IMG/VR virus record: IMGVR_UViG_3300043823_000509
Span: 1 to 33,627 of that record
Direction: 5' to 3' (one strand)
DNA length: 33,627 nucleotides
DNA from: a virus
This document shows, piece by piece, positions 8,373 through 32,300 of the stretch. Made by a program: the position numbers and the translations under genes. The notes under the pieces were generated by a model, which made no database searches, was not told the origin of the DNA, and saw only the letters and a program-made list of their open reading frames with translations. Positions within the stretch are counted from its first letter, which is position 1. Each line of letters starts with the position of its first letter.

Positions 8373-8380
8373 TGTTCTCC

Positions 8381-8401: not shown

Positions 8402-8422
8402 AGAGCATAGCCCACTCCAGCG

Positions 8423-9115: not shown

Positions 9116-9126
9116 GAAATTCCTTT

Positions 9127-9864
9127 CTAAAAGCGGGCGAACCCGAAGAAGATGTTTGCGGAGGGGTTTGTACCCGTCAGTGTCCAGTTCAAACGGGTGT
9201 ACTGACGGATTGGGTTAGGAAGAGCAAGCGTGGTGTCCACTTGAGTGCCGACTGCTGTAATCGCCGTAGAAGTAGCGTTTACGTATGTCACACCGTCACT
9301 GGAGTGCTGGAACGTCAGGCTGAGGGTACCTGACAAAGCCAGAACACCGATTACCAGCAAACCACCATTGATGGTTGCGCTTCCATTGTTTAGAGCGACG
9401 GTGCTACCACTTCCGGTGGCGGTAAAGTACTTGCCCTTACCACGCCAAACACCGCCGTCTGCCTGAACTTCTGCATCAATCGCAACAACGCCGGATACCG
9501 GTGACTTCAAGTCATACTTGGTGGTGATTGCGTTAGCCATGTAACACACTTCGTTTTCCGAAGTACCACCAGCCGGGAAAACAAGCGTTGCCTGGTCTCC
9601 CGAGTTGCTAATTGCGGTTGAAAAAATCTGGTCTACACCCGTCGAGGTGCCGTCATACAGACCCGAAAGGGCGATTGTGCCCTCCTTCAAGCCTGGAATG
9701 TAGGTCTTTACTCCGCCGTTTTGGAAAGTGGTCGTCTCATTGGGGTCGACCGAATAGGAGATAGAGGCGTCGTTGAAAAACTGGGAAATGTCGTATGAGG
9801 CGTTGGCAACAGGGTTGCTAAAAAGAACCCGAGTATTCTTACCGTGCAGGAAAGTAGCAGACAT
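9127..9864 (-). CDS. Tail tube protein paralogue 1 (probable major tail protein) with C-terminal extension
   Basis: A 245-residue protein starting at ATG 9864, overlapping the upstream stop as TAATG. The core (residues 1-148) has the tail-tube signature DISQFFNDASISYSVDPNETTTF, GVKTYIPGLK, GVDQIF and TTKYDLKSPVSGVVAIDAEVQ, matching its downstream paralogue. Residues 149-245 form a separate beta-rich extension (SLTFQHSSDGVTYVNAT..., LNWTLTG), resembling surface domains on tail tube proteins such as the Ig-like tail of lambda gpV. It probably polymerises into the tail tube around the tape measure protein, with the extension displayed outside. It is called the major form because it has the uninterrupted core and comes first in the operon; that choice is an inference. 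Confidence 0.87.
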   Translation of the reverse strand: MSATFLHGKNTRVLFSNPVANASYDISQFFNDASISYSVDPNETTTFQNGGVKTYIPGLKEGTIALSGLYDGTSTGVDQIFSTAISNSGDQATLVFPAGGTSENEVCYMANAITTKYDLKSPVSGVVAIDAEVQADGGVWRGKGKYFTATGSGSTVALNNGSATINGGLLVIGVLALSGTLSLTFQHSSDGVTYVNATSTAITAVGTQVDTTLALPNPIRQYTRLNWTLTGTNPSANIFFGFARF

Positions 9865-10028
9865 TAGTTGTCACCTTCCACAAGAACGATGTGACCACCC
9901 TCGACAAGCCACTTGATGGACTCGCCCGGAAGGTCTGAAACCAGTTCACCCACGTCAGCAACCTTGCCGTTGTAAGTCAACGGGGACAAGTCGGTCACCT
10001 TATAAGTAGCCTGCTTCGATTTTGCCAT
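9864..10028 (-). CDS. Small conserved phage protein before the tail tube gene (54 aa)
   Basis: A short gene with ATG at 10028, a purine-rich site upstream (GGTAGGTG) and a stop that overlaps the tail tube start (TAATG at 9866-9862). The product begins MAKSKQATYKVTDLSPLTYN and continues GKVADVGELVSDLPGESIKWLVEGGHIVLVEGDN. The pattern 'K..dvgelv.dlp.esikWL...G.I' recalls small proteins of about 50 residues common in the connector-tail region of actinobacterial phages; the function is unknown. It is probably the first gene of the tail segment, since it follows a strong terminator by about 45 bases. Tight coupling to the tail tube gene suggests equal timing. Confidence 0.8.
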   Translation of the reverse strand: MAKSKQATYKVTDLSPLTYNGKVADVGELVSDLPGESIKWLVEGGHIVLVEGDN

Positions 10029-10132
10029 AACACCTACCGTCAAACTGGTCTCGGTGCTAAAAGCGTATCATCGAAAAACAAAAAACCCCTTGGCGCACTA
10101 CCGTGAGTGACCAAGGGGTGTCTAGGTTTTGC
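10029..10132 (-). other. Intergenic gap of 104 bases with terminator
   Basis: This is the longest non-coding gap in the window. It contains the intrinsic terminator of the 93-residue gene and, after it, about 45 bases before the small tail gene. No convincing -35/-10 pair was seen after the terminator, so expression of the tail genes must rely on read-through or on a promoter of unfamiliar sequence. Confidence 0.6.
10075..10119 (-). terminator. Intrinsic terminator after the 93-aa gene
   Basis: On the minus strand a perfect 9-bp stem (ACCCCTTGG with CCAAGGGGT, 10119-10111 and 10093-10085) is extended inside by CACT/AGTG. It is followed directly by TTTTT-G-TTTTT. Stem plus U tract is the standard factor-independent form. 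It lies 14 bases after the stop of the 93-residue gene. Confidence 0.9.
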
Positions 10133-10414
10133 TTAGTCTGATGAATCTTCGGAGGCGCTCGATTTGCGCTGTCTGCGCTTAGGAACCTTCTTCACCCTTT
10201 CAGGAGCGAAGTACCTAAAAGCCTGGTGACCCTTTTGTCCGCCCAGCACACAAATGGAGTCAACTGCTGTGCCGTCTGGTGAAAGCCATGCAAAGCGGAA
10301 TGAAAACTCACCACGCTCTCCAGTCACCTTTACTGGGTCCCCAGAGTTGAAACCGTCCCACTCTGGGGACTTCCGCTCATTAGATGATTCGATAATTTGG
10401 ACACGACGTGCCAT
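10133..10414 (-). CDS. Small basic-tailed protein of unknown function, own promoter and terminator
   Basis: A 93-residue protein starting at ATG 10414 after GAAGGGAG. I do not recognise its function. Residues 1-70 look like a compact beta-rich domain (FNSGDPVKVTGERGEFSFRFAWLSPDG..., SICVLGGQKGHQAFRYFAPERV). Residues 75-84 are strongly basic (KKVPKRRQRK) and the end is acidic/serine-rich (SSASEDSSD). The basic tail could bind nucleic acid or an acidic partner. It is flanked by an extended -10 promoter about 27 bases upstream and an intrinsic terminator right after the stop, making it a self-contained transcription unit inside the structural operon. Such an arrangement resembles a 'moron' cassette, although related small genes may also be normal parts of actinophage connector regions. 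Confidence 0.82.
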   Translation of the reverse strand: MARRVQIIESSNERKSPEWDGFNSGDPVKVTGERGEFSFRFAWLSPDGTAVDSICVLGGQKGHQAFRYFAPERVKKVPKRRQRKSSASEDSSD

Positions 10415-13324: not shown

Positions 13325-14092
13325 CTATCTCTTGCGCTCTACAAATGATTGGTGGTCCGGGAACTGCTTGCCCCAGGCGTCTTCACCACGGAAATACCGT
13401 CGCCCCGCCCCATGGCTTTTAACCGTGTCTTCCTGGGTGCGTTGCCTGGAGAACTCACGATTTGTTTGGGACTCCATAAACAGTTGCTCTTCGGTAAAAA
13501 TATCTTCCGCAAACACTGGAGAAAACTGGTCTGCGAAGTACCTGGGTATCGTTATAAACGCCCCGACTGGCTCTCCCTTTTCGAAATGAATTGGGTAATT
13601 TGGTTCGGTGATTTTTAGGTTGAAAGTAAAGTCACGGCGGAGATTATCCGTCTCGACAACCCCCGTCATGTGGGTAATCCCACGCTTGAAAAAGTTTGGT
13701 GGGTTGATTGTCATTATGTTGACGCCCGGCGATGTCCGGTAATGCCAAAAATTTTGAACAGTAAGAATCCCAGACCCAAAGTGCCCTTCGTAAGCCTGAA
13801 CGGGCTGTTGTGGCTTGTCCCACTCAACCACAACGTCACTATCCAAATCTCCGCCATTCCATGTAACCGTGAAGTCGTAGGCTGAGCGCACAATAAAACC
13901 ATATTGATTGCCAATTGACAGGGGGAGGCAGTAGTAGAAATGAGAGTTGAACCACTCCCTCTTACGCTTTCCAGCCATCGGCTCAAGCAATTCTTCAATC
14001 GTCTCACGTGCTACGTAGGGCTCACGTATAACAACAAGGGCGTTTTGAGGAACTTCATTGCCGGGACTATTAATCGTGTTTTGCTGATTCAT
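13325..14092 (-). CDS. DUF6065-like protein, copy 2
   Basis: A 255-residue protein from ATG 14092, overlapping the previous gene by 23 bases. It is paralogous to that gene along its full length. Shared motifs in order are NSPGNEVP, W(F/Y)..HFY.CLP..IGNQYGF, F.V.WNGG, HFG.G..T..N.W..RT.PGVN.MT, PN.FKRG..MTGV(V/I)ETDNLRR.F.FNLKITEPN, F.KGE....FI..PRY and FPDHQSF at the end. The combination CLP..I.NQ.G..., HFG.G, RT.PG and 'G..ETD....F..N.K.T.P' is that of the DUF6065 family, as I recall it, found in bacteria and aquatic phages. The biochemical role is unknown. It is the last gene of the enzyme-like cluster. Confidence 0.75.
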   Translation of the reverse strand: MNQQNTINSPGNEVPQNALVVIREPYVARETIEELLEPMAGKRKREWFNSHFYYCLPLSIGNQYGFIVRSAYDFTVTWNGGDLDSDVVVEWDKPQQPVQAYEGHFGSGILTVQNFWHYRTSPGVNIMTINPPNFFKRGITHMTGVVETDNLRRDFTFNLKITEPNYPIHFEKGEPVGAFITIPRYFADQFSPVFAEDIFTEEQLFMESQTNREFSRQRTQEDTVKSHGAGRRYFRGEDAWGKQFPDHQSFVERKR

Positions 14093-14846
14093 TTCTTGGC
14101 TTCTTTATAAACGATTGGTGGTCGGGGAAAGGGTTTTCAAAAGCATCCACACCACGACGATAGTGATTCTCAGGGCTGTCTGGCGACTCCCGCAAGCGAC
14201 CGTGCTCTTCGCAGTTCATAAACTCTAAGTCAATTTGCTCCCTGCTGTAAATGTCGTTAGCGTAAGCAATAGAAAACTTGTCAACGTAATATCGTGGCAA
14301 AAGAATAAACGATGCCAGCATTTCGCCTTTTTGGAAGAAAATCTGGTGATTCGGTTCCGTTATTTTTAGATTGAAAATAAAGTTGCGACGCAAATTGTCT
14401 GTTTCGATTACCCCGGTCATCATATGGACCCCACGCTTGAAAACATTTGGTGTTTGAACGGTCATGAAATTTACCCCCGGCGGGGTACGCATCAACCAAC
14501 GGTTCTCAATCGTTATGGTCCCATAACCAAAATGGGACTTGATGTGCTGGATGTCACCAGAAACCGCTTCATCTATTGTGATTTTCGTGTCTTCGGGTTT
14601 GTTTCCCCCATTCCAAATAACCGAAAAATCTTTCTCTGCATAAAGAGCGAAGCCGTACTGGTTACCAATAAGCATCGGAAGACAGCGGTAAAAATGCGGG
14701 TCGTACCAATCCCGTTGCTTTTCCCCGGCAAGCGGTTTTAGGATATTTTCAATTCTCTCGATAGTTACGTCCGGGTCTTGGTAGGGGATTACGAGAAGTT
14801 TCCAATCCGGGACTTCATTTCCGGGCGAATTTATTAATTCCGTCAC
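14070..14846 (-). CDS. DUF6065-like protein, copy 1
   Basis: A 258-residue protein. The GTG at 14846 (MTELINSPGNEVPDW) overlaps the stop of the upstream oxygenase as GTGA, and its N-terminus aligns with the ATG start of its downstream paralogue, which supports the start. Motifs include FYRCLPMLIGNQYGFALY, IWNGGNKPED, SHFGYGTITIENRWLMRTPPGVNFMT, KRGVHMMTGVIETDNLRRNFIFNLKITEPN and KGEMLASFILLPRYYVD. The two copies are strongly similar in the central 150 residues but differ in their C-terminal 50, apart from FPDHQSF. DUF6065 proteins have no assigned activity. The genomic neighbours suggest action together with 2OG oxygenases. Confidence 0.75.
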   Translation of the reverse strand: MTELINSPGNEVPDWKLLVIPYQDPDVTIERIENILKPLAGEKQRDWYDPHFYRCLPMLIGNQYGFALYAEKDFSVIWNGGNKPEDTKITIDEAVSGDIQHIKSHFGYGTITIENRWLMRTPPGVNFMTVQTPNVFKRGVHMMTGVIETDNLRRNFIFNLKITEPNHQIFFQKGEMLASFILLPRYYVDKFSIAYANDIYSREQIDLEFMNCEEHGRLRESPDSPENHYRRGVDAFENPFPDHQSFIKKPRNESAKHD

Positions 14847-15427
14847 GACCGTCGGGACATTTTGTCAGACCGCTCCGGGTCGAAGCACCAAAACCCCGCA
14901 CACGTGTAGCGGGTTCCAGAGGTGATTTTGCTAACTCCGTGTAGGTATTCGTTGGTTCCGGTCCATGTAGCGAGCAGACCCGCTTGGGGGACTATAGCAA
15001 TTTCCTGATTTGGGAAATATGTGTTGCCACCTTCATAATCGGTGTTTAAATAAATAATTGAGGCGTAGCGTCTCCATGGATATGGGTGCTCTGTTCCATC
15101 TTCCAATTCTGCGTCGGCGTGCGGAGGTTGCGCCATGCCCGTCTTCCAACGAACAATTTGAAAAGAATCAGAGTAAACTTCGTCCTTCTCGTACACTTCT
15201 TTTATGAAAGCACGAACCCTTTTATGAATCCCGAAAAGGGTTTCATAAACTTTCTCATTCTTCGGGTCATCGGTTTTTTCAAGTGAATCGGCAAATAAAA
15301 CCCTGCCGTTCCAATTTGGGTCATCACCGCTCCAGTCCCAACGATTCTCGTTTGACTCGTCACGGGCGAAAGCCAAAAGTGTCCGAATCTCGTCCGAATT
15401 CAAAAAGTTCTTTTCAGCGTAAATCAT
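14843..15427 (-). CDS. 2-oxoglutarate/Fe(II)-dependent dioxygenase (prolyl hydroxylase-like)
   Basis: A 194-residue protein from ATG 15427, near the minimum for a double-stranded beta-helix oxygenase. The iron triad is visible: His103-x-Asp105 in PPHADAE and His163 in YLHGVSKI. Arg173 in SGTRY is the expected 2-oxoglutarate carboxylate ligand. The block YASIIYLNTDYEGGNTYFPNQEIAIVPQAGLLATW is typical of the P4Hc/2OG-FeII_Oxy_3 superfamily (SMART P4Hc, Pfam PF13640). The reaction would be hydroxylation of a substrate coupled to decarboxylation of 2-oxoglutarate. The substrate cannot be read from sequence. It overlaps both neighbours by 3-4 bases. Confidence 0.88.
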   Translation of the reverse strand: MIYAEKNFLNSDEIRTLLAFARDESNENRWDWSGDDPNWNGRVLFADSLEKTDDPKNEKVYETLFGIHKRVRAFIKEVYEKDEVYSDSFQIVRWKTGMAQPPHADAELEDGTEHPYPWRRYASIIYLNTDYEGGNTYFPNQEIAIVPQAGLLATWTGTNEYLHGVSKITSGTRYTCAGFWCFDPERSDKMSRRS

Positions 15428-16137
15428 TCTTCTTCTCCTAGCAAAAATCGCTTCTTTTTCCAGTGGTCTTTTTTATACATTGTTTTTTGCGCCCGCCACT
15501 GGTCATCATAGGACGGATTTGAAAACATAATTTCTTCAAAATGCGACCTGGTTACATGAACCAGTCCCGGCTTTTCCGTCATTGAAAAATTTTCCGTTTT
15601 GAACGGAATCACTTGGGCAAAAGGTGTACCCGCTGGTATGAGACCTTGGAAATCTTGCCTTATACAAAAGGCAATGTTTCCAGGTGGCATTTTGTAATAC
15701 CCATCGACAACCGCAGAAAACGTTATAAATGGTGTGTCAAATCGATTCATGGGTTGGGTAAAAAGCGCACTATACCCGTCGGGCACTTCAATAGCCAACT
15801 TGTTTTCCCAAGAAAAACGAACCCGCTGGTATCCCGCAGGTAGTGGCATATCCCCCGTTTCGTCGCCCGGGCGCTCATGTATCTCCGCTCCCGATGAAGA
15901 GGTGATTAGGAGACCTCCGGGCGCCCGCTCCACTAAATAATCTTCGTGGGTCAACAAAAGCCACCCTACTGTCAGCGCCTCCAAGAACGGGAAGCAGTGC
16001 TTCAGCGAGGGCACCGAGGCGCCATCATCTGAGTCAAACATCAAAGGCACACGCTTGTACCAATCCGGTATCGAGCGTGATGCAGAGGCTATGAGCGGGT
16101 CGTTGTGCCCTTCATTTTCATAATAAAAATTAATCAT
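15424..16137 (-). CDS. Phage protein of unknown function in oxygenase cluster, distantly DUF6065-like
   Basis: A 237-residue protein from ATG 16137. Motifs are IPDWYKRVP, LKHCFPFLEALTVGWLLLTHEDYLVER, RFSWENKLAIEVPDGYSALFTQPMNRFDTPFITFSAVVDGYYKMPPGNIAFCIRQDFQGLIPAGTPFAQVIPF and a basic C-terminus (KKDHWKKKRFL). Proteins of this type are frequent in marine T4-like and other aquatic phages and have no known activity. The order 'C.P...A...G', 'P.GYS.LF..P.NR', 'VVD......N..F.I' and 'GTP..Q.IPF' parallels that of the two DUF6065-like genes downstream (CLP..I.NQ.G, RT.PGVN.MT..PN, ETD...F.FN.KI, KGE....FI..PR), so a common fold is possible. It overlaps its neighbours by 4 bases on each side. Confidence 0.72.
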   Translation of the reverse strand: MINFYYENEGHNDPLIASASRSIPDWYKRVPLMFDSDDGASVPSLKHCFPFLEALTVGWLLLTHEDYLVERAPGGLLITSSSGAEIHERPGDETGDMPLPAGYQRVRFSWENKLAIEVPDGYSALFTQPMNRFDTPFITFSAVVDGYYKMPPGNIAFCIRQDFQGLIPAGTPFAQVIPFKTENFSMTEKPGLVHVTRSHFEEIMFSNPSYDDQWRAQKTMYKKDHWKKKRFLLGEEE

Positions 16138-16871
16138 TGCAACCAGTAGGGCTCAAAAGTCCCGTCGTTTATACTTTCTTGTACCCAAGTTTTTGTATTC
16201 GGGTGACGGCACCAAAAAGCCGTATTTACGTATCTGGTCCCGCTGGTGATTTGCCTGACGCCGTGTGGGTGTAAAAGGTCTCCACTAAAAATGACCAGAA
16301 GTCCCGCCTTGGGCTTAATTGAGAAGTCGCCATTCATCGGGAAATATATTTCCCCGCCTTCGAAATCGCCGTTTAGGTACAACATACTCGTGTAGTGCTT
16401 GTTCGTGTTGTAGCGCTTCCAAACGGGTTCTGCTGAAGCCGGGAAAAGACTCTCGTCATAATCGGGGGGCAAATCTGTTTCCCGATTGAAATCAGGGTCG
16501 ATGTAATCGATGTGCGGTTTTTGAGCAAGTGGGTAATACCACTTAACAACCTCCCAACTTTCTAAGAACAGTTGGTCGGGAGAGCGCCGGAAGAAACCCG
16601 CTACCTGAGCCTTCGATTTTTGCAAAATATCCCACGCCCGACCAACGAACTCGCCATTCGTCCCCTCGGATACAAGGCGGTGAAAATTGATGACCCTATC
16701 GTTCCATTGAGCCGAGTGCTCGGCAAAATGCTTGGGGTCCGGATAATTTTCCGGGGTTGCGTTTTGGATAGACCACAAACCAGTTTCGTTTGCAGTGCTG
16801 ATTAAATAATCGCACGTTTCCTGGTCAATGAAATTTTCAATAACCCTTACTTTTGGTTCTGTAAAGTCCAT
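16134..16871 (-). CDS. 2-oxoglutarate/Fe(II)-dependent dioxygenase (prolyl hydroxylase-like)
   Basis: A 245-residue protein from ATG 16871. The N-terminus (VRVIENFIDQETCDYLISTA) is the usual lead-in of P4H-type oxygenases. The catalytic set is His120-x-Asp122 (KPHIDYID), His203 in HPHGVRQITSGTRY and Arg213 as the 2-oxoglutarate ligand. HYTSMLYLNGDFEGGEIYFPMNGDFSIKPKAGLLVIFSG is a textbook P4Hc core. An insertion of about 30 residues follows the HxD motif (DPDFNRETDLPPDYDESLFPASAEPVWKRYNTN), compared with the 194-residue neighbour. All catalytic residues are present, so the enzyme is probably active. Substrate unknown; the cluster lies next to collagen-like and polyproline virion genes. Confidence 0.9.
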   Translation of the reverse strand: MDFTEPKVRVIENFIDQETCDYLISTANETGLWSIQNATPENYPDPKHFAEHSAQWNDRVINFHRLVSEGTNGEFVGRAWDILQKSKAQVAGFFRRSPDQLFLESWEVVKWYYPLAQKPHIDYIDPDFNRETDLPPDYDESLFPASAEPVWKRYNTNKHYTSMLYLNGDFEGGEIYFPMNGDFSIKPKAGLLVIFSGDLLHPHGVRQITSGTRYVNTAFWCRHPNTKTWVQESINDGTFEPYWLQ

Positions 16872-17434
16872 GCTTCCTCCGTCATCCGTCCTTGGGTTAC
16901 CTCCACATAATCGTGACCCTTGCTATAGAACCAATGCTCGGGCTCAACGAAATGGAAAAAAACCAAAGCAATATTTTTCCCCTCTGGCTCCACCATCATG
17001 GGGCGCCCATGTTCCTGGTCTTCACCGTAGAAAGCCAGTGCCTGATTGGGGTAGAGCGTGAAAGAGTCACCCTCCACGATAATGTCCCACGGGTCGGTTT
17101 GGTAAACACACAAATCAAGTGTGTAAGTACAAGCATTTGTATCTTTATGATGCAAAAGGTTGGGCATTGAGTCACCAACTTTTTCGTAGTGAGAAAAAAA
17201 ACAGTAACTTGGCAATAGCGTTGGACTATTAAAAACCTCCTTCGCAACCGGCAATAGAGAATCAAATGCTTTCATCACCAGTTGATTGCCTTCGCCGCCC
17301 ATTATGTACCTACCATAATTATCTTCGTAGTAGCAATCCCCAGCCCTCACTTGCTCAAGCAAACTGCTTGCAAGCATTTTGTGGGTATCATCATCTAAAA
17401 GGTTTTCAATAACTTTTGCTTTCAACTCACCCAT
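16847..17434 (-). CDS. 2OG/Fe(II) oxygenase-like protein, paralogue of 18009-18587
   Basis: A 195-residue protein from ATG 17434. It opens with the common lead-in (KAKVIENLLDDDTHKMLAS). The probable iron site is His96-x-Asp98 (LLHHKDTNACTYTLDLCVYQTDPW) with a distal His142 (EDQEHGRP). The downstream signature FFHFVEPEHWFYSKGHDYVEVTQGR..EEAW is nearly repeated in the paralogous gene two positions upstream, with CTYT.D.C.YQT.PW.(I/L)(I/V)VEG also shared. This is a divergent member of the 2OG oxygenase/cupin fold in which the 2-oxoglutarate arginine is less obvious; Arg144, two residues after the distal His in QEHGRP, is one candidate. It overlaps its neighbours by 13 and 25 bases. Confidence 0.78.
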   Translation of the reverse strand: MGELKAKVIENLLDDDTHKMLASSLLEQVRAGDCYYEDNYGRYIMGGEGNQLVMKAFDSLLPVAKEVFNSPTLLPSYCFFSHYEKVGDSMPNLLHHKDTNACTYTLDLCVYQTDPWDIIVEGDSFTLYPNQALAFYGEDQEHGRPMMVEPEGKNIALVFFHFVEPEHWFYSKGHDYVEVTQGRMTEEAWTLQNQK

Positions 17435-18036
17435 TGAACCACCGCATACCTTTCACCGCTTATTACTGGCTTGACTTCGTGTAAATACATAAAACCCGAG
17501 GGGAAGAGAATGGTTTGGTTCGCCCGTGGCTTCACGGTGACGCCAAACTTTGGAAAAACTATTTCCCCGCCTTCATAGTTTTCATTGGCGTAATGCACCA
17601 GCGAAACACGGCGAAGTTGACTTCTACCGTCATCAACATGAAGCGTAAATTTTTGCCCTTTACCGTACTTCAGAACACTGAAGTTTTCGTAAACCCCCAG
17701 CAATTCGGGGTTGTGGCGCCGGAAGTAATCTTCGTAGTACGGCAAAAACGCCTCCCGGAAAACATCGGAAAGTTTGAATCGGAAAAAATCGGGGTGCAAT
17801 TCCGGGGTGTATTCGTTTTCTGGGCGCTGAGCCGGTACGCTAAAAATTTTACAGTTTCGAGATACTTCATCAATTATTGCCGTGCCCGACTCGGTATAAA
17901 CCTTGGATGGCTCCCATAGGCTTCTCAAACCAACGGAGCGACGGTCTATCTCTGAAATAGCGTCCATAACGCCACCGGATGTGTTGTCGTAAAGAACAAT
18001 TCCAGGCGCTAATTCTGACGACGTGATTCCATCCAC
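17422..18036 (-). CDS. 2-oxoglutarate/Fe(II)-dependent dioxygenase (P4H family)
   Basis: A 204-residue protein if it starts at GTG 18036 (followed by DGITSSELAPGIVLYDN). A longer reading to 18099 would overlap the upstream gene by 91 bases and adds residues without family support, so the GTG is preferred. The triad is His133-x-Asp135 (TLHVDDGR) and His186 (MYLHEVKPVISGERY), with Arg196 binding 2-oxoglutarate. RRVSLVHYANENYEGGEIVFPKFGVTVKPRANQTILFPS is the P4Hc core. The N-terminal half carries an extra helical region (residues 20-110). The ELAPGIVLY lead-in is common in phage-encoded members. It sits between the two paralogous oxygenase-like genes. Confidence 0.87.
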   Translation of the reverse strand: MDGITSSELAPGIVLYDNTSGGVMDAISEIDRRSVGLRSLWEPSKVYTESGTAIIDEVSRNCKIFSVPAQRPENEYTPELHPDFFRFKLSDVFREAFLPYYEDYFRRHNPELLGVYENFSVLKYGKGQKFTLHVDDGRSQLRRVSLVHYANENYEGGEIVFPKFGVTVKPRANQTILFPSGFMYLHEVKPVISGERYAVVQWVS

Positions 18037-18587
18037 TCTTCTTCGCTCTTTCGTCCATGCACTACTTCGTAGTAGTCCCTCCCTTTGGTAAAAAACCAAT
18101 GGTCTGGCTCTGCATAATGGAAGAATACCATTGCCACGTGTTGCGTGTCTGGATTTGGGAACTGTGGGCGCCAGTGCCGTAGGTCACAACTTTGGAAGGC
18201 GAGCCCCTGGTTTTCTAGGAGAGTAAACTCCTGCCCCTCTACAACTAGACCCCATGGCTCCGTTTGGTAAAGACACATATCTATCGTGTAAGTGCAGGCG
18301 TTATCGTCCACGTGTAAGGGTAGTGCGGGTTTGTAAAAGCCTTTTGCTTCGTAGTGTACAAAGGAGGTATATGTTGGTCGGAGTGTCTTGCTACCAAATA
18401 TTCTCATTGCGTCCGTCAAGTAAAGTCTTGCAAAATTATCAATAATGTCGTTTGGTCCACCGGATGTCAGGTAGCGCCCGAGCAACGGATTGTATGGGAA
18501 GGTTTTTGCCAGCGGTTCCAGGCGGTTTCGAAGTATTGAGTAGTACTCGTCGGTAAAAACCTTGGGTATAAAAAGCGGACTATGCAC
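18009..18587 (-). CDS. 2OG/Fe(II) oxygenase-like protein, paralogue of 16847-17434
   Basis: A 192-residue protein. The start chosen is GTG 18587, which overlaps the upstream stop as TAGTG and has GGTGG just before it. A GTG at 18629 is possible but overlaps 43 bases and adds 14 unconserved residues. The motif LHVDDNACTYTIDMCLYQTEPWGLVVEG has His92-x-Asp94, and the distal ligand is probably His138 in CDLRHWRP. The C-terminal block FFHYAEPDHWFFTKGRDYYEVVHGRKSEEEW matches the paralogue closely. The pair look like an old duplication with a P4H-type gene between them. The substrate is unknown. Confidence 0.78.
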   Translation of the reverse strand: MHSPLFIPKVFTDEYYSILRNRLEPLAKTFPYNPLLGRYLTSGGPNDIIDNFARLYLTDAMRIFGSKTLRPTYTSFVHYEAKGFYKPALPLHVDDNACTYTIDMCLYQTEPWGLVVEGQEFTLLENQGLAFQSCDLRHWRPQFPNPDTQHVAMVFFHYAEPDHWFFTKGRDYYEVVHGRKSEEEWMESRRQN

Positions 18588-19189
18588 TAGCCACCGACAT
18601 GGTGAAAAACATTGCTCATCAGAATGCACGCCCTCTTTTGCGTCATGCTTGTAACTTCGTGCTCAAGCGGAAATGGAATGTACAAAACATCGCCTGGATA
18701 CAAAATTTCGTATTTCACACTGCCGTCTTCCCCATAAATTTGCCAGAAAGATGACCCGATGCAATTCCAGTGGATTGCATCATTGTGGTCACGGTGGCGG
18801 GCGCTACCGGACAAACCAGAACTATTAGTGCTGATAAGAGTGTAAATATCCGGCAAAAAACAACACCATAATGCCTTTTGAACCGTGTTCCAATACGGTC
18901 GGGATTCCGGGAAAAATTCTATGTGCTCTTCTAAGTTATTTGACAGGATATTACAAAACCCATTACTTCCAAGTAAGCGAACCGTAGTTGCCCCCGGATT
19001 TAGTGAGTTGCTTTTTTCGTTTTTATACTTTACGAATGCCTCCCACGATGGAGTGATGGGGAAAGCATTCCTAAATACCGTTACTTCTTGAATCTTGGGT
19101 TTGTGATTACCTACAAATTCACACAAATCATGGTTGTATTCTTCTGAAGGACCAAAATCAATTTCATAAGGCTTGGAAAGAATTGACAT
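18587..19189 (-). CDS. Cupin/JmjC-like putative oxygenase
   Basis: A 200-residue protein from ATG 19189, overlapping the stop of the Hint-domain gene as TGATG. The C-terminal half looks like a cupin or JmjC-type barrel: ARHRDHNDAIHWNCIGSSFWQIYGEDG, then YEILYPGDVLYIPFPLEHEVTSM. Likely metal ligands are His132-x-Asp134 (or the adjacent His-Asn-Asp) and the distal His177 in PLEHEV; 'PGDVLYIP....H.V' is a hallmark of JmjC/cupin hydroxylases. The N-terminal half (residues 1-100) is not recognised. Its place at the head of the oxygenase cluster, translationally coupled to the polyproline/Hint gene, suggests a related substrate, but this is inference. Confidence 0.78.
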   Translation of the reverse strand: MSILSKPYEIDFGPSEEYNHDLCEFVGNHKPKIQEVTVFRNAFPITPSWEAFVKYKNEKSNSLNPGATTVRLLGSNGFCNILSNNLEEHIEFFPESRPYWNTVQKALWCCFLPDIYTLISTNSSGLSGSARHRDHNDAIHWNCIGSSFWQIYGEDGSVKYEILYPGDVLYIPFPLEHEVTSMTQKRACILMSNVFHHVGG

Positions 19190-20271
19190 CAAAGGGCTGA
19201 ACTCTTAACTTGAGCATTGTTGTGTGTCAATATTCCACCGCCAATAAACAAGTCGTTTGGACCAACAGTTGTCATGAATACCATTGCATCTTCGGCAACG
19301 ATGTCAATCGTTTCGACGTTCTCTTCGGTCATCTGTTCTGTTAGGAAGATGTCTCCGACCTGAATCGACCATGCACGCACAAACTGCCAAATGCCTTGAC
19401 GGTTTATAAAAACAAAGTGCTCCCCCGTCAACTTGACACGATTGTTGAAACAAAAGTATCCAGATGCAGTAATGCCTTGGTTCGTATTGACAATAGTTGT
19501 GTCGTATGTGCAACTGCCAATATCCAAATCAGGTATTGACCAAATTGAGGCGGGGAACCATAGGGAAGCATTTTCCCCATTAGGGAATGTCGGGATGATA
19601 ATTGATTTCACGACATCGCCAGGGACAATGTTTTCAATGTTCTTGTATGTTCCGTCAGCCATCAAAATTGGTGAGCCTTCGACATAGCAACCACCACCGT
19701 GGGGAGGTGGTACATACGGGGGCGCAACGGGTGGTGGTACGTACGGTGGCACGTACGGTGGTGGCTTTGGTGGGGCGTAGGGTGGTGGGGCGTACGGAGG
19801 TGTGTACGGTGGTGGTACGTACGGAGGTGTATAAGGCGGTGGTGTGTACGGTGGTGGTACGTACGGAGGTGTATAAGGCGGTGGTACGTACGGAGGTGTG
19901 TACGGTGGTGGGATGTAATAGGGGACATCCGTACTGCTGTAAGCGCTTAGTGCACTAGTACCGGCATCATTGACCGCCTGCACTGCATACTCATATGTGT
20001 AGTTGGCGGTAAAACTGTAGGAAACAAGTGCGGGGCTGGAGGTGAAGCCAGTCTGGGTGGACACCACAGTACCAGTATTGATGCAATAAATGACTACGTT
20101 GTAACTAGTCGCTTTAGAACCACTTGGGTTCGGCGTGAAATAAACATACACTTGTGTTGTCGTGTAAATCGACGGTGTGCCAATCGTCGGCGTTAGCGGT
20201 TTTTGTAGTAAAAACTCGCCACCTTCATCGTCTGCCGACAACCCGCCACGAAAACCAACAATTGGACTCAT
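19189..20271 (-). CDS. Virion-associated protein: Fn3-like domain, Pro-Pro-Tyr rod and Hint self-processing domain
   Basis: A 360-residue protein from ATG 20271 with three parts. Residues about 25-115 resemble a fibronectin type III domain (PTIGTPSIYTTTQVYVYFTPNPSG..., YTYEYAVQAVNDAGTSALS). Residues 119-190 are a rod of PPYTPPYVPP-like repeats. Residues 195-351 form a complete Hint domain. Cys195 opens it (GGGCYVEGSPILMADG), followed by IENIVPGDVV, block B TGEH (Thr282-His285), and the C-terminal His350-Asn351 (GGILTHNN), leaving nine residues after Asn351. Hint domains perform N-to-S acyl shift and Asn cyclisation, giving cleavage, splicing or transfer of the N-terminal part to a nucleophile. 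Here there is no Cys, Ser or Thr after the Asn, so cleavage or ligation to another molecule is more likely than splicing. It is the last gene of the fibre region and is coupled to the first oxygenase gene. Confidence 0.87.
   Translation of the reverse strand: MSPIVGFRGGLSADDEGGEFLLQKPLTPTIGTPSIYTTTQVYVYFTPNPSGSKATSYNVVIYCINTGTVVSTQTGFTSSPALVSYSFTANYTYEYAVQAVNDAGTSALSAYSSTDVPYYIPPPYTPPYVPPPYTPPYVPPPYTPPPYTPPYVPPPYTPPYAPPPYAPPKPPPYVPPYVPPPVAPPYVPPPHGGGCYVEGSPILMADGTYKNIENIVPGDVVKSIIIPTFPNGENASLWFPASIWSIPDLDIGSCTYDTTIVNTNQGITASGYFCFNNRVKLTGEHFVFINRQGIWQFVRAWSIQVGDIFLTEQMTEENVETIDIVAEDAMVFMTTVGPNDLFIGGGILTHNNAQVKSSAL
19801..19884. repeat. Two exact 42-bp tandem repeats in the Pro-Pro-Tyr rod
   Basis: Bases 19801-19842 and 19843-19884 are identical, and less exact copies of the same pattern flank them (about 19690-19915). 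Each unit encodes 14 residues of PPY(T/V) repeat, so rod length can change in frame by slippage. Confidence 0.93.
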
Positions 20272-20298: not shown

Positions 20299-21168
20299 CT
20301 AGAACTGTGTTAGAGAAGCAAAAACTGTGTAGGTGGCATTCGCCGTTTTGGTAATGGTGAAGTTGTAGCCGTCGTATCCGTTTGCATAGCCCGACGTAGG
20401 GGCGGTTCCCTGTTGCCAATATATCGTTACGCCGGATGTCGTACCGTCCACCAAAACGCTTGTGCAGTAATAAGATGCGCCCGAAGACCCCTGGAGGACC
20501 ATGACCGCCACGGATAGCGACTGACCCGTCGACAAAAGGGCGTTTATAGTCCCCCCTCCCGATGTTCCGGTGAAGTTGAAGGTGAAGGTGCTGGTTGCGC
20601 TGGCTGTGTATACAATAAGCGAGCCAGAACCCGACAGATAGATGGGCTGGGTTCCGTTTGCGCCCGTTCCGTTGAGGTATGTGGCTTCAATCGGAGAGGT
20701 AAAAACCGTATTCAGGACAGTAGCCGGTACGCCCTGTGTTCCCTGGTTTCCTTGGTAGCCCTGCGCCCCTTGATTGCCCTGGGTTCCCTGAGAGCCCGTT
20801 GAACCCTGGACACCCTGAGTTCCTTGGCTTCCCTGAACGCCCTGGTATCCTTGATAACCCTGATAGCCCTGCGAGCCGGTTGTACCCGTCGAGCCCTGCG
20901 GACCCTGAAAACCTTGCGGTCCCTGGGCTCCAACCCCCTGAGGTCCCTGGCTCCCCTGTAGCCCTTGGTAACCCTGCGAGCCCTGTGTGCCCGATGAGCC
21001 AGTAGTGCCAGATACTCCTTGATACCCCTGGAAACCTTGGTTGCCCTGGGGTCCTTGATAGCCCTGCGTCCCTTGGTTGCCTTGCGAACCTTGCGAGCCA
21101 GAAGAACCTTGTGCGCCGACAAAAGCCGTTGTCCACTGAGAACCGTTGTAAGTTTTTAAGACGGACAT
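20299..21168 (-). CDS. Collagen-like fibre protein with conserved C-terminal head
   Basis: A 289-residue protein from ATG 21168 behind a strong CAGGAGAAATC site. The N-cap MSVLKTYNGSQWTTAFVGAQG is shared with two other genes in the window. Residues 18-148 are Gly-X-Y triplets with Gln at most Y positions, broken once near residue 79 (GVGAQG). Residues 150-289 form a beta-rich head ending in VDGT..VTIYWQQGTAPTSG....YNFTITKTANATYTVFASLTQF. The same head, with variations, ends the collagen-like proteins at 22224-23915 and 25200-26372. Collagen-like stalks trimerise, and the head probably nucleates trimerisation or binds a receptor. Expected location is a fibre on tail or head. Confidence 0.88.
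   Translation of the reverse strand: MSVLKTYNGSQWTTAFVGAQGSSGSQGSQGNQGTQGYQGPQGNQGFQGYQGVSGTTGSSGTQGSQGYQGLQGSQGPQGVGAQGPQGFQGPQGSTGTTGSQGYQGYQGYQGVQGSQGTQGVQGSTGSQGTQGNQGAQGYQGNQGTQGVPATVLNTVFTSPIEATYLNGTGANGTQPIYLSGSGSLIVYTASATSTFTFNFTGTSGGGTINALLSTGQSLSVAVMVLQGSSGASYYCTSVLVDGTTSGVTIYWQQGTAPTSGYANGYDGYNFTITKTANATYTVFASLTQF
20725..21117 (-). repeat. Collagen-like Gly-X-Gln triplet region
   Basis: About 43 consecutive nine-base units encode G-X-Q, G-X-T or G-X-S triplets. Codons vary between units, so identity is kept at protein level more than at DNA level. Confidence 0.93.
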
Positions 21169-25200: not shown

Positions 25201-26372
25201 TAGAACTTAACCACGCTTCCGATGACGACGTAACTGTTGGCGGTAGAGTTCTTGGAAATGGTGAATGTGTAGGTGGTGAGAAACGTCGAACCGGATGAAG
25301 GTGCGCTTCCGCCTTGCCAGTTAATCAAGAAACCCGTGCCGTCAATGTAAAAGTTACCGCTGTAGTAGAAGTTGTTAGGCGCATACACATTGAACACGAC
25401 GGTTATTTGCTGACCCGTGTTTAGCGTGTTGCCAAAAGTAACCGTATCTGTTGCACTGCCAGTTATGCCAAAGGTGAAGTTGGCGGTGGGATTATTCCAT
25501 ATCCAAGCGACGCTCGGTTGGTCGAGGATGCTAAGGACGTATGGTGAAGTACTTAGCGCCGTAGTTGCGTCTGAAACCACAGCCTCAAATGGTGATTGCA
25601 AAACGGGGTTGATTGTTGCCCCGCCCGAGATGCAAATCCACGTCGTCGAAGAACCGTTGTTGCTGGCGACCATGGTTATTGATTGGCGTGGGCTGAGAAT
25701 GTACGTCGTTCCAGGACCGCTCAGCACCAATCCGGGGAACCAAGCCACATCGCCTGATTGGGGTTGGATGTAAGCCTCACCAAAAAGGCTGGCACAATAG
25801 AGCGTGATGATTGAGCCCGTCGTTGCGCCTGTCGGCAATGAGTATGTAAATCCGGCGAATTCAATGTAATTGAATGTGTTGACGGCGAATGTACCGCTCG
25901 ATGTCCACGTAACAAGTGTCGTAGCCGGGGCGCCCTGTGCGCCCTGTGCGCCGTTGAAGCCTGCGACACCCTGTGCGCCCTGAGTACCTTGAGGACCCTG
26001 GAGACCCTGGGCTCCGATGCCAACATCGCCCTGATACCCTTGTGCCCCTTGCGGACCCTGCACGCCGGTCGCACCTTGTGTTCCTTGAGCGCCCTGTGCA
26101 CCCTGTGTACCGCTTCCACTTGCGCTGGTGTCAAGCCAGAGAAGCGTCGTGTCTGTTGGCGCTACGCCGTTAGAGGTGTAAACGCCTTGAGCACCTTGAT
26201 AGCCTTGACCGCCTTGGTTGCCCTGGTATCCCTGTGGACCTTGATACCCTTGTGTTCCCTGGTTTCCCTGGCTCCCCTGAGGTCCCTGGTTCCCTTGGTA
26301 CCCTTGATACCCCTGGGCGCCAACAATAGCGGTGACCCATGAGGTGCCGTTGTAATACTTAAGAAGACCCAT
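25200..26372 (-). CDS. Collagen-like fibre protein with two short collagen blocks
   Basis: A 390-residue protein from ATG 26372, overlapping the stop of the giant fibre gene as TAATG. The N-cap MGLLKYYNGTSWVTAIVGAQG is the shared one. Collagen triplets cover residues 18-63 and 88-149, split by GVYTSNGVAPTDTTLLWLDTS. A beta domain (150-255) with FAVNTFNYIEFAGFTYSLPTGATTGSIITLYCASLFGEAYIQ and SPRQSITMVASNNGSSTTWICISGG follows. The C-terminal head is the shared one, ending APSSGSTFLTTYTFTISKNSTANSYVVIGSVVKF. This is the shortest collagen stalk but the longest head of the three paralogues. It is probably a virion fibre. Confidence 0.87.
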   Translation of the reverse strand: MGLLKYYNGTSWVTAIVGAQGYQGYQGNQGPQGSQGNQGTQGYQGPQGYQGNQGGQGYQGAQGVYTSNGVAPTDTTLLWLDTSASGSGTQGAQGAQGTQGATGVQGPQGAQGYQGDVGIGAQGLQGPQGTQGAQGVAGFNGAQGAQGAPATTLVTWTSSGTFAVNTFNYIEFAGFTYSLPTGATTGSIITLYCASLFGEAYIQPQSGDVAWFPGLVLSGPGTTYILSPRQSITMVASNNGSSTTWICISGGATINPVLQSPFEAVVSDATTALSTSPYVLSILDQPSVAWIWNNPTANFTFGITGSATDTVTFGNTLNTGQQITVVFNVYAPNNFYYSGNFYIDGTGFLINWQGGSAPSSGSTFLTTYTFTISKNSTANSYVVIGSVVKF

Positions 26373-29300
26373 TAGCCCAATCTTTCAATCGTGATGTGCC
26401 CGCCAGTAGTGGCGTCCCCGTGGATACAGGTGACTCGGTAAACACGGAAGTTAGTTTTATCCATGATGTGGGCAATGATGACATCGCCACCAGATGAGAT
26501 GGTGTGAACCGCATTGATACTTGTCCAGGTTCCTGCCGTAAAGGAAATACCACTGGAGTTAGTCTGGGAAGTAATTGATGAGCCTGCCACAATTTCTATT
26601 GTCGTAACGTAAGCAGTAAACGTACCGGATACGGCAGAAGCCTGAATCAAACCCGCTGAACCACCGTTGGCGTAAATACGCACATTGAGGTTGTCCATTG
26701 CAAGGGAAGTATTGAAAGCGGTGTCAAGACCCGATTGGGATACTTGAGAAATGTAAGCATTGCCAGTGTTAACACTGCTGGAGATTGGTCCACCAACATA
26801 AAGACCGCCATTGCCCGAGTTGATTTCGGTGTTTACCTGTACGGCGGAACCGTCGGTGGCATTAATCCATAAGGTACCCGAACCCGAGTGAAGGTGAAGG
26901 TTGCCATCGTCAAACAAGTAGCCATTGTTGTTGAGGTTGATGGCATTGGTCGTAGGCAGATTACTTGTTACAGAAGCCTGCGGAAGACCAACAAGACCAT
27001 TGTCTGCAATAGAAAACACCGCAGAGGTGTATCCACTATTAAGGACTTCGAGACCGCCCGTAGGGTTGATACGAATATATTTGGTGCCGTTTGTAGCACC
27101 GGATGAAGTATTGGTCAGAGTGACCATGCCAGCAAAGTTGGTTCCGCCGTGACCATTATTTGAGTTAATTGTCAGCGGGTCTGATGTGCCACTAGATGTA
27201 AGCGTGTACGGAGCGGTGGGTGTCGCACCCTGCGTTCCTTGGTTGCCCTGGCTACCCTGTGCTCCTTGCGCTCCTTGCGAGCCTTGCGAGCCTTGGGAAC
27301 CTTGAGAACCAGTCGAGCCCTGAACACCTTGCGTACCCTGCGGTCCGGTCGAACCCTGGAATCCTTGGTTGCCCTGTGAGCCGGTTGCACCTTGCGTACC
27401 CTGAGTGCCTTGACTTCCCTGTGTGCCCTGTGGACCTACGCCCGGAACAGCCGTCGCTGTTTCGTCATACCAGAGAAGTGAGGTGTCGCTCGGCGCAATT
27501 CCATCATCGGAAACGTAGAGTCCTTGGACTCCTTGGTGACCTTGCGTTCCTTGGAAACCTTGGTTTCCCTGGGTGCCTTGAGTGCCTTGGTATCCCTGCG
27601 GTCCTTGATACCCCTGGGTCCCTTGAGCACCCGTCGAGCCTTGCGAACCGGTGGCTCCCTGGACGCCCTGCGTACCTTGGGAGCCGGTTGCACCTTGAGC
27701 GCCGGTAGAGCCCTGGGCTCCTGTTGCACCTTGGTTGCCTTGCGGTCCCTGGTAGCCCTGGTTGCCCTGGGTTCCTTGGTTCCCCTGCAAGCCAGTTGCA
27801 CCCTGATTGCCTTGGTACCCCTGAAATCCTTGGTTTCCCTGCGAGCCAGTGGAACCTTGTGCCCCGGTAGAGCCTTGCGAACCGGTTGAACCCTGGAGTC
27901 CTTGGAATCCTTGGAATCCTTGGTGTCCCTGAGTTCCCTGGTTACCTTGTGGTCCAAGTTGTGTGTACATTACTTGAGTAATGTTTGCAATAACCGAAGG
28001 CGTTGCGGGGTAGTTTGAACCGGCGACAGAGGCAAGAAGCGTTACGCCAGTACTGGGCGTCATCCAGTAAATTTCGATGTAGTCATTCGGGTTGGCTGAA
28101 GTACCAACAAAAGAAGACGTGTAGATAATCTGCCCGGCAACGTTTCCCGACTTGGCGGGGACGGTAACAATGTCATTACTGTTTCCCCAGTCACTACCCA
28201 TGTAGCGAATCCAAACATTTACGTTTTCGTTGGAGTTCGAAGAGTTGTTGAACTGAAGCGTAAATTGAAATTGATACGTGGCAACATTTGCCATGATGAT
28301 GTGCGAACTACTGCCGAGCGAAACGCCGTTTGCTCCATATGTTCCATCAATGGTTACAGCAGTTGGTGTGTTTGCGGTTGCGCTCTGAGTTACATCACTG
28401 TAAAAAGCACCGTAATAACCGAGCGCTCCACCTGCTCCAGTTGCTCCCTGGGCACCCTGCGGTCCAACACCAGCGACTTCAGCAAAGTCAATATTGTCGG
28501 TACCAATTTTAATTGCGCCGTCACTATTGCTTCCGTAAATGTACTGAACCCAGGACGAATTTGCTTGCGTTGTTCCGTCGGTAACGAACAAGTAGTCACC
28601 CTGTTCAACCTGACCTTCCAAATGGTTGTCGTAGTCTGTGGCACGTGTCAATACTGCTGATGTTGTGCTGTTACCGCCAGTTGTAAGCGTGTAAATACCA
28701 TTTTGGCGATTGTCGGTTTGGTTCTTGACCAAAATTCTTTGTCCGACAAGCGGGGTGTAGCCGTCAATAGTTAATGTCCCAACGGCAGACATCGTTAGCG
28801 TAGCGCCGACTCCATATCCGTTGTCCGCATCAGCGGTACCAGCGGTGTAAGTTGCGGCAAGATTTGCAGTAGTTGCAACAACGGCAGATTGGTGGGCATT
28901 GTTAGAGCCAGAAACGCCTTGGTACCCTTGATTACCTTGATAACCCTGGTTTCCTTGGTAACCCTGAAATCCCTGCGTACCTTGAGAACCAGTCGAGCCC
29001 TGGTAGCCCTGAAATCCCTGATTTCCCTGAACGCCTTGAGTTCCTTGCGTACCCTGCGCTCCTTGTGAGCCGGTCGAGCCTTGTGAGCCGGTCGAACCCT
29101 GTGAGCCAGTCGTACCCTGGTTACCTTGCGTACCTTGGGCGCCCGTTACGCCTTGGTACCCTTGGAATCCTTGGTAGCCTTGGGGACCCTGTGCGCCGGT
29201 TGAACCCTGCGAGCCGGTTGAACCCTGAACGCCCTGAACGCCCTGATACCCCTGGTAGCCTTGAGCGCCAGTTGAACCTTGCAAGCCAGTTGAACCCTGG

Positions 29301-32300
29301 TTGCCCTGGTACCCCTGGGTTCCTTGGACCCCTTGATAACCCTGCGAACCCTGGGCTCCGGTAGAGCCGGTCGAGCCTTGGGCTCCGGTTGTTCCTTGGT
29401 TACCCTGCGTTCCCTGAAAACCCTGGTACCCCTGGAATCCCTGGTTCCCCTGATTACCTTGCGTACCCTGGAAGCCCTGTGAACCTTGTGCACCAGTCGA
29501 ACCAGTTGAACCCTGGTATCCCTGGAAACCTTGACTGCCCTGAGCACCAGTTGAGCCCTGTGCACCAGTTGAGCCCTGCGAGCCAGTATCACCAGTCGAG
29601 CCTTGGTATCCCTGGAAACCTTGGTTCCCTTGGGTCCCTTGGAATCCTTGTGTTCCCTGTGCGCCAGTCGCCCCGGTTGCGCCCTGGCTTCCTTGGAAAC
29701 CCTGATTTCCCTGGAAGCCTTGTGCACCCGTCGAGCCCTGGGCTCCGGTGGAGCCCTGTGACCCAGTCGAGCCCTGACTACCCGTTGCCCCCTGTGAGCC
29801 GGTTGTGCCTTGAGCGCCAGTAGAACCCTGAGCGCCAGTAGCACCCTGGAAGCCCTGATAACCCTGATTTCCTTGAGAGCCCTGGAAGCCCTGGCTTCCC
29901 TGTGCGCCTGTTGAGCCCTGAACTCCGGTAAGACCAGAAAGTTGTAGGCGCCATGTTGCGCTTGGGTCTGAAACTGCTGTTCCGCCGAACCCGGTTACAA
30001 AGAAATAGAAAGAAGACGAGTTTGGAAGAAGAGTTACTTCACCCGTGTAGTAAAAAGACGAGCCAATAGTTTGGTCTACGAGCCTAACGATATCTCCGAC
30101 CTGAAAGGCGCCTGTTCCATTCGGTGCGTCGAGGTTCCACGTGCCGTTTATGTACGTCGCCCCGCCAGAAGTTGTTTGCAGAGAAGTATCGCAAGTGATT
30201 CCGTCGTAACTTGCGCCCTGAAAACCCTGGTTGCCTTGGTAGCCCTGATGTCCCTGCGTTCCCTGAGAGCCCGTCGCACCTGTCGAACCCTGGTATCCCT
30301 GGTTTCCTTGTGTTCCCTGTGAGCCAGTTGCACCGGTCGAACCTTGGACGCCCTGGTACCCCTGGTTGCCTTGGAGACCCTGTGACCCAGTTGCGCCAGT
30401 TACGCCCTGGAAACCCTGGACCCCCTGGACCCCCTGGGCGCCTTGCGTGCCCTGACTCCCAGTTGAGCCTTGATATCCCTGAGGACCCTGGAAGCCCTGG
30501 GGACCGACCTCTCCTGCGAGGTTGACAATCCAACTACCAAGTTGGTTGCTGTAGGAGTTGGTGTAGGTAACAACAATTTCCAAAGCGCCAGAAGAAGAAT
30601 CGTACCCGACAATTTGTCCATTGATAAAAATGCTACGGTCATCGACGTAGCAAATTGTTACTGCTTCACCGAGGCTGTATGCGAGATTTGCACCTACCGT
30701 GAGCGTCGCAACCGAATTGAGCGAGTAGGAACTCAGTGTGAGCAAGGTTGTTGACGAAGTCAGATAGCGGTCACTTTGTGGACCTTGGTTACCCTGATAT
30801 CCCTGCGAGCCCTGATATCCCTGCGAACCTTGCGAGCCGGTTGCACCTTGGTACCCCTGCGAGCCCTGCGAGCCCGTCGAACCCTGAACGCCCTGGTTGC
30901 CCTGAGCCCCCTGGAACCCTTGATTTCCCTGAGCCCCCTGGTAGCCCTGATTGCCTTGCGAACCCTGGGCGCCAGTCGCCCCCGTGGAGCCCTGCACGCC
31001 CTGAGAGCCCGTGACACCCTGCGGTCCCGTGCCCCCAGTACTTCCGACACTACCTTGGAAGCCCTGGAAGCCCTGAAAGCCCTGGTTCCCCTGTGAGCCA
31101 GTAGTTCCCTGGAAGCCCTGAACCCCCTGGAAGCCTTGGTAGCCCGTCTGACCCTGCGAACCCTGCGGTCCGGTGAATCCTTGCGAGCCCTGTGAACCGG
31201 AAGCACCTTGGGGTCCTTCGAGACCGGGAGAACCCGTTAAGCCGGTTGCGCCCTGGGCACCCTGAACGCCCTGGAATCCCTGGAATCCTTGGTCTCCCTG
31301 ATAGCCCTGGAGACCCGTCACGCCCTGTGCGCCTTCGACAGCGAGAACCGCCCAGTATGACGGATTCGTGTCGGGCTCTTTGTTTGTGGATGCTTGCGAG
31401 GCGAAGTAAGACGAGCCGTTGTATGAGACAGTATCACCTATCACATAAGCAGTAGTACTCTGCCATCCTCCAGTGTAGAAAAAGCCAGGACCTTGATTTC
31501 CTTGATAGCCCTGAGGTCCCTGTTCACCAGAAAGGTACAACCATAGGTACTCGGATGTCAGTGTTCCGTAAATGCTAATTATGTAGACGTTTACAACTGT
31601 TGTACCTTGACCCAAGTACCCGGTTGCATCGTCGATTGAATCGACATTTCCAAAGGCGTAGTTAGACCCATCTTGCCAAATCAAAACTGTTTGCCGGGAT
31701 ATAAAAGCCGAAGCGTCAACCGCCCCAAATCCGTATGTGCCCCCAACCGTTATGGATACAGAAGGGTCGTGGAAGATTTGGGTATAGGCGGACGAACCCT
31801 GTGGTCCCTGTGGTCCTTGGAACCCCTGATAACCCTGGTTCCCTTGATAGCCCTGGACACCCTGCGAGCCCTGATATCCCTGCGTGCCGGTAGAGCCCTG
31901 CGAGCCAGTTACGCCTTGGTTGCCTTGGAAGCCTTGGTTACCCTGGGGACCCTGGTAGCCCTGGGAACCTTGGACACCCTGAAGACCCTGGAAGCCCTGA
32001 AAACCCTGGAATCCCTGGTTTCCCTGGAATCCCTGGAAGCCCTGCGGTCCCGTTATGTTCCCAATCCCGTACCACGTTGAGTTACTGGAGTTGTACTGCC
32101 AAACAGAACCGTCGGTTGTCTTGAGGTAAAAATCGCCATTCTGGATTCCGGGAATTGTTGACAGTGGGTTGCTCGTCCCCTCGAACCACTCGGTTCCACG
32201 GTTACCCTGATTGCCTTGATTGCCCTGATTGCCCTGGTAGCCCTGATTTCCTTGGACGCCCTGAAAGCCTTGAAAGCCCTGGTTGCCTTGCGACCCAGTT

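Follow-up and report, generated by a model that had tools for sequence, protein, structure and literature searches.

A C-terminal Hint domain of the A-type BIL class in a phage fibre-like protein, with a recurrent lysine in its short tail

What does a Hint domain do at the extreme end of a phage fibre-like protein, where its terminal asparagine is followed by nine residues? The stretch of DNA analysed here (the window) is a linear virus record of 33,627 bases that contains tail genes: PHROGs matches include major tail proteins, a tape measure and connectors, and Pfam places several collagen-like fibre genes upstream of the Hint gene. One of the four collagen-like fibre genes (26372-33574) encodes a 2,400-residue protein with many GxQ repeats, and a 1,707-residue frame runs past the left end of the window. 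A single Hint domain is present, and the stop codon of its gene overlaps the ATG of the following gene as TGATG. The features of this locus are as follows.

20299..21168, minus strand: collagen-like tail fibre gene, directly upstream of the Hint gene (Pfam Collagen, E = 2e-20; PHROG tail fibre families)
19189..20271, minus strand: gene of the Hint-ended fibre-like protein (P0001), 360 aa, ATG start
19924..20271, minus strand: N-terminal domain, residues 1-116, weakly Fn3-like (Pfam fn3 below cut-off)
19699..19923, minus strand: proline-tyrosine stalk, residues 117-191, with PPPYTPPYV repeats (from sequence)
19690..19698, minus strand: Gly192-194 directly before Cys195, the presumed acyl donor (Gly at -1 in relatives)
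19219..19689, minus strand: Hint domain, residues 195-351, without endonuclease insert (alignment, profile, model and fold match)
19687..19689, minus strand: Cys195 (Cys1), invariant in 20 of 20 rows
19417..19428, minus strand: block B TGEH, residues 282-285, with Thr and His invariant in 20 of 20 rows
19219..19224, minus strand: His350-Asn351, invariant in 20 of 20 rows
19192..19218, minus strand: C-terminal tail NAQVKSSAL, residues 352-360 (from sequence)
19204..19206, minus strand: Lys356, candidate acceptor (Lys in 13 of 13 terminal tails)
18587..19189, minus strand: JmjC/cupin-like oxygenase gene, next after the Hint gene (Pfam JmjC_2, E = 5e-4)

The original prediction of a complete Hint domain at the end of this protein is borne out residue by residue. 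A script located Cys195, TGEH at 282-285 and a single His-Asn pair at 350-351, and the nine residues after Asn351, with Asn352 at position +1, read NAQVKSSAL. Pfam Hint and intein models match the single protein weakly (E = 0.006 to 0.034, below cut-off), and a profile from 20 relatives finds the solved bacterial intein-like (BIL) domain 2LWY at E = 1e-14, with chains of BUBL BIL2 next (E = 2e-11). The 20 aligned rows are 22 to 54% identical to the window protein, with a mean column identity of 43%; invariant among them are Cys1, a Gly, a Gly-Asp pair, an Asn, the Thr and His of TxxH, a further Gly, the block F Asp and His-Asn. The family profile also matches residues 1082-1224 of a 1,368-residue "Intein C-terminal splicing domain-containing protein" (PDB 8W20/8W22; E = 4e-10).

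The AlphaFold2 model of the Hint domain has a pLDDT of 89.2 and a pTM of 0.85, and the C-terminal tail is disordered in the model (pLDDT 27). Its best structural match is 6y75, the BIL2 domain of the Tetrahymena BUBL1 locus (Z = 19.5, rmsd 2.0, 140 residues), followed by 6tmm (Z = 18.8), 6frg (17.7), 2lwy (17.6) and 1at0 (16.9), such that DnaB mini-inteins (Z = 17.7) and the Clostridium thermocellum BIL (Z = 17.6) rank after the BUBL1 BIL2 structures. Among viral models, the top three matches have the lengths of NCTB proteins (1304, 506 and 153); uncultured phage proteins bearing the labels Hint, PASTA or Fibronectin type III come next. With a Hint fold, Cys1, TxxH and His-Asn all present and with Asn352 in place of Cys, Ser or Thr at +1, the domain is, on sequence and model, an A-type BIL Hint domain. 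The accompanying expectation that its self-cleavage chemistry should be intact is well supported by the invariant catalytic residues and the predicted fold. Against the nearest relative (locus L033), the Hint region has a dN/dS of about 0.17, a rough value with dS near saturation that points to purifying selection.

The domain belongs to a family with a common plan: a repetitive stalk, then glycines, the Hint domain and finally a short tail, which in the terminal set defined below measures 1 to 28 residues. Stalks within the family are mutually unrelated and comprise collagen, PPPYTPPYV, YNPPPYDNTYY, INTIDT, SPVGVSP and YYTAPVYY types. Position -1 is Gly in 11 of the 13 terminal lineages, and most members carry an additional segment with a tryptophan, located between blocks A and B. 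Position +1 is Thr in Alexandra, AD1, Y3 and Yoloswag, and V, M, A, P, I, F, Y or K elsewhere. Members come from metagenomic phages and from cultured jumbo phages (Alexandra, AD1, Y3, Yoloswag and NCTB). The scans of viral contigs yielded 6 loci from 13 candidate stretches, 25 from 193, 11 from 14, 3 from 4, 2 from 4, 1 from 14, 18 from 25 and 75 from 341, many loci of the last scan being other kinds of Hint.

The reach of the family in a phage collection depends on the query: the window protein matches NCTB alone (1 of 50,697 records), a second family member matches 35 records, and the Hint domain of Dickeya phage AD1 matches 55, mainly Erwinia jumbo phages. The Hint gene is gp112 in Erwinia phage Alexandra and gp108 in AD1. 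In these phages the Hint domain ends a collagen-like protein within the tail fibre cluster, and the proteins are annotated as "virion structural protein", "tail fiber" or "contains intein domain". PHROG 38766, a phage virion structural protein family, matches 18 of the 20 Hint rows, the window row and the full window protein being without a match. The label "virion-like" that had been given to the window protein stands on gene order and homologues rather than on proteomics, and no virion proteomics of Alexandra-like phages was found among the papers listed. On these sequence grounds we would place the arm in the virion. The Fn3 assignment of its N-terminal domain proved weaker than claimed: a Pfam fn3 (PF00041) match exists, at E = 0.031 and 14.9 bits against a gathering cut-off of 25, and the model of residues 1-120 is poor (pLDDT 46), with seven strands. 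This domain is 70% identical to that of the nearest relative.

Several loci depart from the common plan. In L009, an S74 chaperone domain follows the Hint domain (Pfam E = 2.5e-8). S74 domains cut themselves off at their start, forming a self-removing C-terminal module of phage fibres; if that occurs in L009, a 12-residue lysine-bearing tail would be left, like those of other members. L037 (protein 2598-10049), L184 and L194-L196 encode proteins with A-type Hint domains in tandem, two or three each, linked by HN-K-G-(G)n-C, so that a lysine lies between neighbouring domains at each junction. In many proteins of an Elusimicrobia genome (L093, L095-L098, L100 and L101), an in-frame, Cys-less partial copy comes after an intact Hint domain, and some of these proteins have poly-Pro or poly-Asp ahead of Cys1. 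Free-standing Hint-like proteins that lack Cys1 are encoded at 9744-10205 of L008 (NCTB gene 135) and at 5692-6222 of L024; the former retains His-Asn and lies directly behind an intact Hint fibre gene, and the latter has no His-Asn. A Cys-less "pseudo-Hint" partner was considered as a general rule: NCTB gene 135 conforms to it (E = 1e-25) and a protein downstream in L011 does so weakly (E = 6e-4), but the idea was set aside once a profile comparison between the L011/L013 pair and the Hint alignment returned a probability of 2.4%.

A lysine recurs in the tails. Within the first set, all 17 tails contain lysine, against 7.8 expected from equal-length C-termini of 143 other ORFs on the same contigs, and 2 contain arginine, against 6.3 expected. 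The terminal set was limited to proteins with at most 30 residues after the Asn (a cut of our own); it includes one bacterial protein (L183), and L009 entered it with the 12 residues ahead of its S74 domain. When these tails are clustered below 40% identity, lysine is present in 13 of 13 (6.4 expected, P = 2.8e-5) and arginine in 3 (4.9 expected); below 60% identity, lysine is present in 19 of 19 (10.2 expected, P = 2.8e-6) and arginine in 3 (7.4 expected). Arginine is not enriched and is no substitute for the tail lysine. The tails of the window protein and L033 share none of their nine aligned residues, and each has a lysine.

The excess extends to A-type Hint domains in any context. After the exclusion of 191 rows (111 partial, 8 without HN, 12 without Cys1, 14 without TxxH and 46 duplicates), 92 domains were kept, giving 58 representatives below 60% identity, 47 of them A-type and 11 with Cys, Ser or Thr at +1. 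Lysine occurs within ten residues after His-Asn in 45 of the 47 A-type representatives (null, 16.6), at +1 itself in 23 of the 47, and in 21 of 22 domains below 40% identity with one domain per protein (null, 6.7; reached in 0 of 5000 draws). The position of the first lysine varies from +1 to +9. A-type domains with no lysine in the first ten residues are the representatives L180 and L146 and, outside the representatives, L099. The lysine idea arose from inspecting tails, and only later-fetched loci count as prospective: among those less than 60% identical to earlier ones, lysine is present in 15 of 17 (null, 6.2), and in the small set below 40% identity, in 7 of 8 (P = 0.015). Lysine also occurs in 5 of the 6 domains, a small number, that have Cys, Ser or Thr at +1 (null, 2.8; P = 0.07), indicating that the lysine rule may not mark A-type domains alone; a contrast with inteins in this respect is not established.

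How such a lysine might be used is suggested by the chemistry of related domains. The original prediction had offered two outcomes, release of the arm or its transfer to another protein, and this pair was incomplete, the tail lysine as a candidate built-in acceptor having been omitted. In the mechanism that we propose, Cys195 would attack Gly194, converting the end of the proline-rich arm to a thioester, and the arm would then pass to the amine of a lysine, first of all Lys356, in the same chain or in a neighbouring fibre chain. Where inteins make an ester with Cys, Ser or Thr, this step would yield an isopeptide bond. The Hint domain would then be released by cyclisation of Asn351, and the mature arm would end in an isopeptide-capped or cross-linked glycine with the Hint domain gone. 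Transfer from Gly194 to lysine is favoured because every terminal tail has a lysine and because BUBL BIL2 is reported (PMC8616854) to form an isopeptide bond with the epsilon-amine of lysine, joining ubl4 to ubl5 or Ras without ATP. That the window's domain is an active A-type BIL Hint that follows this course, with Lys356 the first acceptor, cyclisation of Asn351 and a freed Hint domain, is a reading to which we give a little less than an even chance. We infer the reaction itself, the lysine used and the virion location of the arm. Taken together, the analysis suggests that the phage cuts off the Hint domain and, in assembling its fibre, makes a covalent bond of an unusual kind. Alternatively, the tail lysine could aid solubility or the cyclisation of Asn.

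An arm that is simply set free offers a possible, if rather unlikely, account of the same module. The thioester would be hydrolysed by the Hint domain, Asn351 would trim the tail and the arm would be released as residues 1-194, such that the Hint serves as a removable domain that keeps a sticky or slow-folding stalk orderly in assembly. Such a role would suit an end module that stays constant beside highly varied stalks, as well as the combination in L009 of Hint with a self-removing S74 chaperone, and cleavage products predominate among A-type BILs (PMC4031507). It leaves unexplained, however, the lysine in every terminal tail and the retention of His-Asn ahead of tiny tails (a single Lys in L021, FKL in L106 and IKQL in L107).

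Transfer of the arm in trans, to an amine (of lysine or otherwise) on the host surface or on a different virion protein, which would fasten it covalently to that partner, is distinctly unlikely. There is a precedent in BUBL BIL2, which can join ubl4 to unrelated proteins, e.g., Ras (PMC8616854), and the glycine at -1 in most terminal lineages would provide an unhindered thioester, but a tail lysine beside the active site would compete with any outside acceptor, and no partner gene is common to all members.

Splicing had been discounted on the ground that Asn occupies +1. This argument was too strong, given that A-type BILs can splice without a +1 nucleophile and that relatives have Thr, V or M at this position. 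According to PMC4031507, absence of the +1 nucleophile defines A-type BILs, which mostly undergo cleavage but can splice: Cys1 forms a thioester, His-Asn is present, and splicing is proposed to proceed through the freed amine of the C-terminal fragment. Applied to the window protein, Asn351 would cyclise first and the new N-terminus of the tail would attack the thioester, leaving Gly194 joined to Asn352...Leu360 by a normal peptide bond. We regard this as very improbable: the route has been proposed for this class and His-Asn is invariant, but any +1 residue would suffice, which leaves the lysine excess unexplained, and a short tail, once freed, would diffuse off. Least probable is a dead or selfish intein remnant that happens to end a fibre gene, for which the Cys-less Hint copies in NCTB gene 135 and the L024 protein are the precedent, and against which stand catalytic columns that are invariant in distant members despite the low mean column identity, purifying selection and the absence of an endonuclease insert.

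The genes behind the Hint gene may bear on the nature of the stalk. In the window, about nine small genes occupy 13325-19192, among them one JmjC-like gene, two DUF6065 genes and the following three.

17422..18099, minus strand: 2OG-Fe(II) oxygenase gene (Pfam PF13640, E = 1e-16)
16134..16871, minus strand: 2OG-Fe(II) oxygenase gene (Pfam PF13640, E = 3e-9)
14843..15427, minus strand: 2OG-Fe(II) oxygenase gene (Pfam PF13640, E = 9e-9)

A similar group lies behind the Hint gene of L033, with a JmjC_2 match at E = 1e-8. Elsewhere in the family, L009 encodes a 2OG oxygenase, a group 1 glycosyltransferase and a fusion resembling glycosyltransferase-25 and OGFOD2 (7296-10410), L014 encodes a 2OG oxygenase and a PF11397 glycosyltransferase (3120-4949), L015 and L017 have 2OG oxygenases near the Hint gene, and L011 has a GT7 gene near it (6942-8351). 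PF11397, which we take to be the family of the Skp1 hydroxyproline GlcNAc-transferase, is found directly downstream of the Hint gene in L106 (4456-5535) and L107 (2429-3448). By annotation or by eye, no oxygenase or glycosyltransferase was seen in the flanks of L003, L010, L021, the Alexandra-like phages, NCTB or Afa-NA1, and the one gene among them compared with Pfam (L010, 1883-3064) had no match. As a lead, these neighbourhoods raise the prospect that the stalks may be hydroxylated and glycosylated, as glycosylated hydroxyproline or collagen-like stalks.

A broader generalization, which we hold to be doubtful, is that A-type Hints form a lysine class, in which a lysine within about ten residues past His-Asn replaces the Cys, Ser or Thr of inteins and isopeptide formation is followed by self-excision. 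For phages, this would be the closing step of fibre assembly, leaving fibres that are capped or cross-linked covalently and that have hydroxylated, glycosylated stalks akin to plant extensins or collagen.

Already known are BIL domains, BILs that form isopeptide bonds, and database entries in which phage tail proteins are labelled as Hint. Among the open-access papers searched, none on phage fibre-end Hint domains or on the lysine rule was found; in the passages of phage papers examined, "intein" concerns terminase or ribonucleotide reductase, or goes unmentioned. A-type BILs have few assigned roles, and a fibre-tip family with intact predicted chemistry and a kept lysine would give them a concrete job, one that is testable in cultured phages. 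Should the isopeptide step be real, phages would possess compact, ATP-free, self-excising ligation tags of use to protein engineers, and their fibres would be added to pili and adhesins on the list of proteins held together by isopeptide bonds.

Among known systems, the Peptidase S74 or endosialidase chaperone is unrelated in fold and chemistry; it is absent from the window protein and lies behind the Hint domain in L009. A polymorphic toxin of the Pretoxin-HINT type (PF07591) was set aside, as nine residues, and no toxin domain, follow the Hint. Inteins such as the Ssp DnaB mini-intein (Z = 17.7) and gp41-1 have the fold and blocks A, B, F and G in common with the window protein, which lacks a +1 nucleophile and a real C-extein and whose host protein is not a conserved enzyme; a true intein was set aside in view of Asn352 at +1 and of the nine-residue tail in place of a C-extein. 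The Hedgehog autoprocessing domain (PDB 1AT0; Z = 16.9) is also a C-terminal Hint, one from which the N-terminal protein is handed via a thioester to a nucleophile, but the phage Hint keeps His-Asn and lacks the sterol-recognition region, whose absence, with nine residues after Asn351, led to a Hog domain being set aside.

The A-type BIL of C. thermocellum (PDB 2LWY) has in common with the phage domain the Hint fold, Cys1, TxxH, a C-terminal His-Asn and the lack of an endonuclease, and the window protein has no Cys, Ser or Thr at +1. The phage domains differ in sitting at the extreme end of fibre proteins with a short tail after the Asn, in the extra Trp-bearing stretch that most of them share between blocks A and B, and in an Alexandra-like sublineage with Thr at +1. 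The nearest fold is that of Tetrahymena BUBL1 BIL2 (PDB 6Y75 and 6TMM), for which lysine isopeptide chemistry is reported and which, like the phage protein, has a lysine in its C-terminal flank. Unlike BUBL1 BIL2, the phage protein has no ubiquitin-like flanks, with a weakly Fn3-like domain and a Pro-Tyr stalk on its N-terminal side and nine residues on its C-terminal side; the lysine of BUBL lies in a folded ubiquitin-like domain, whereas that of the phage protein lies in a short tail.
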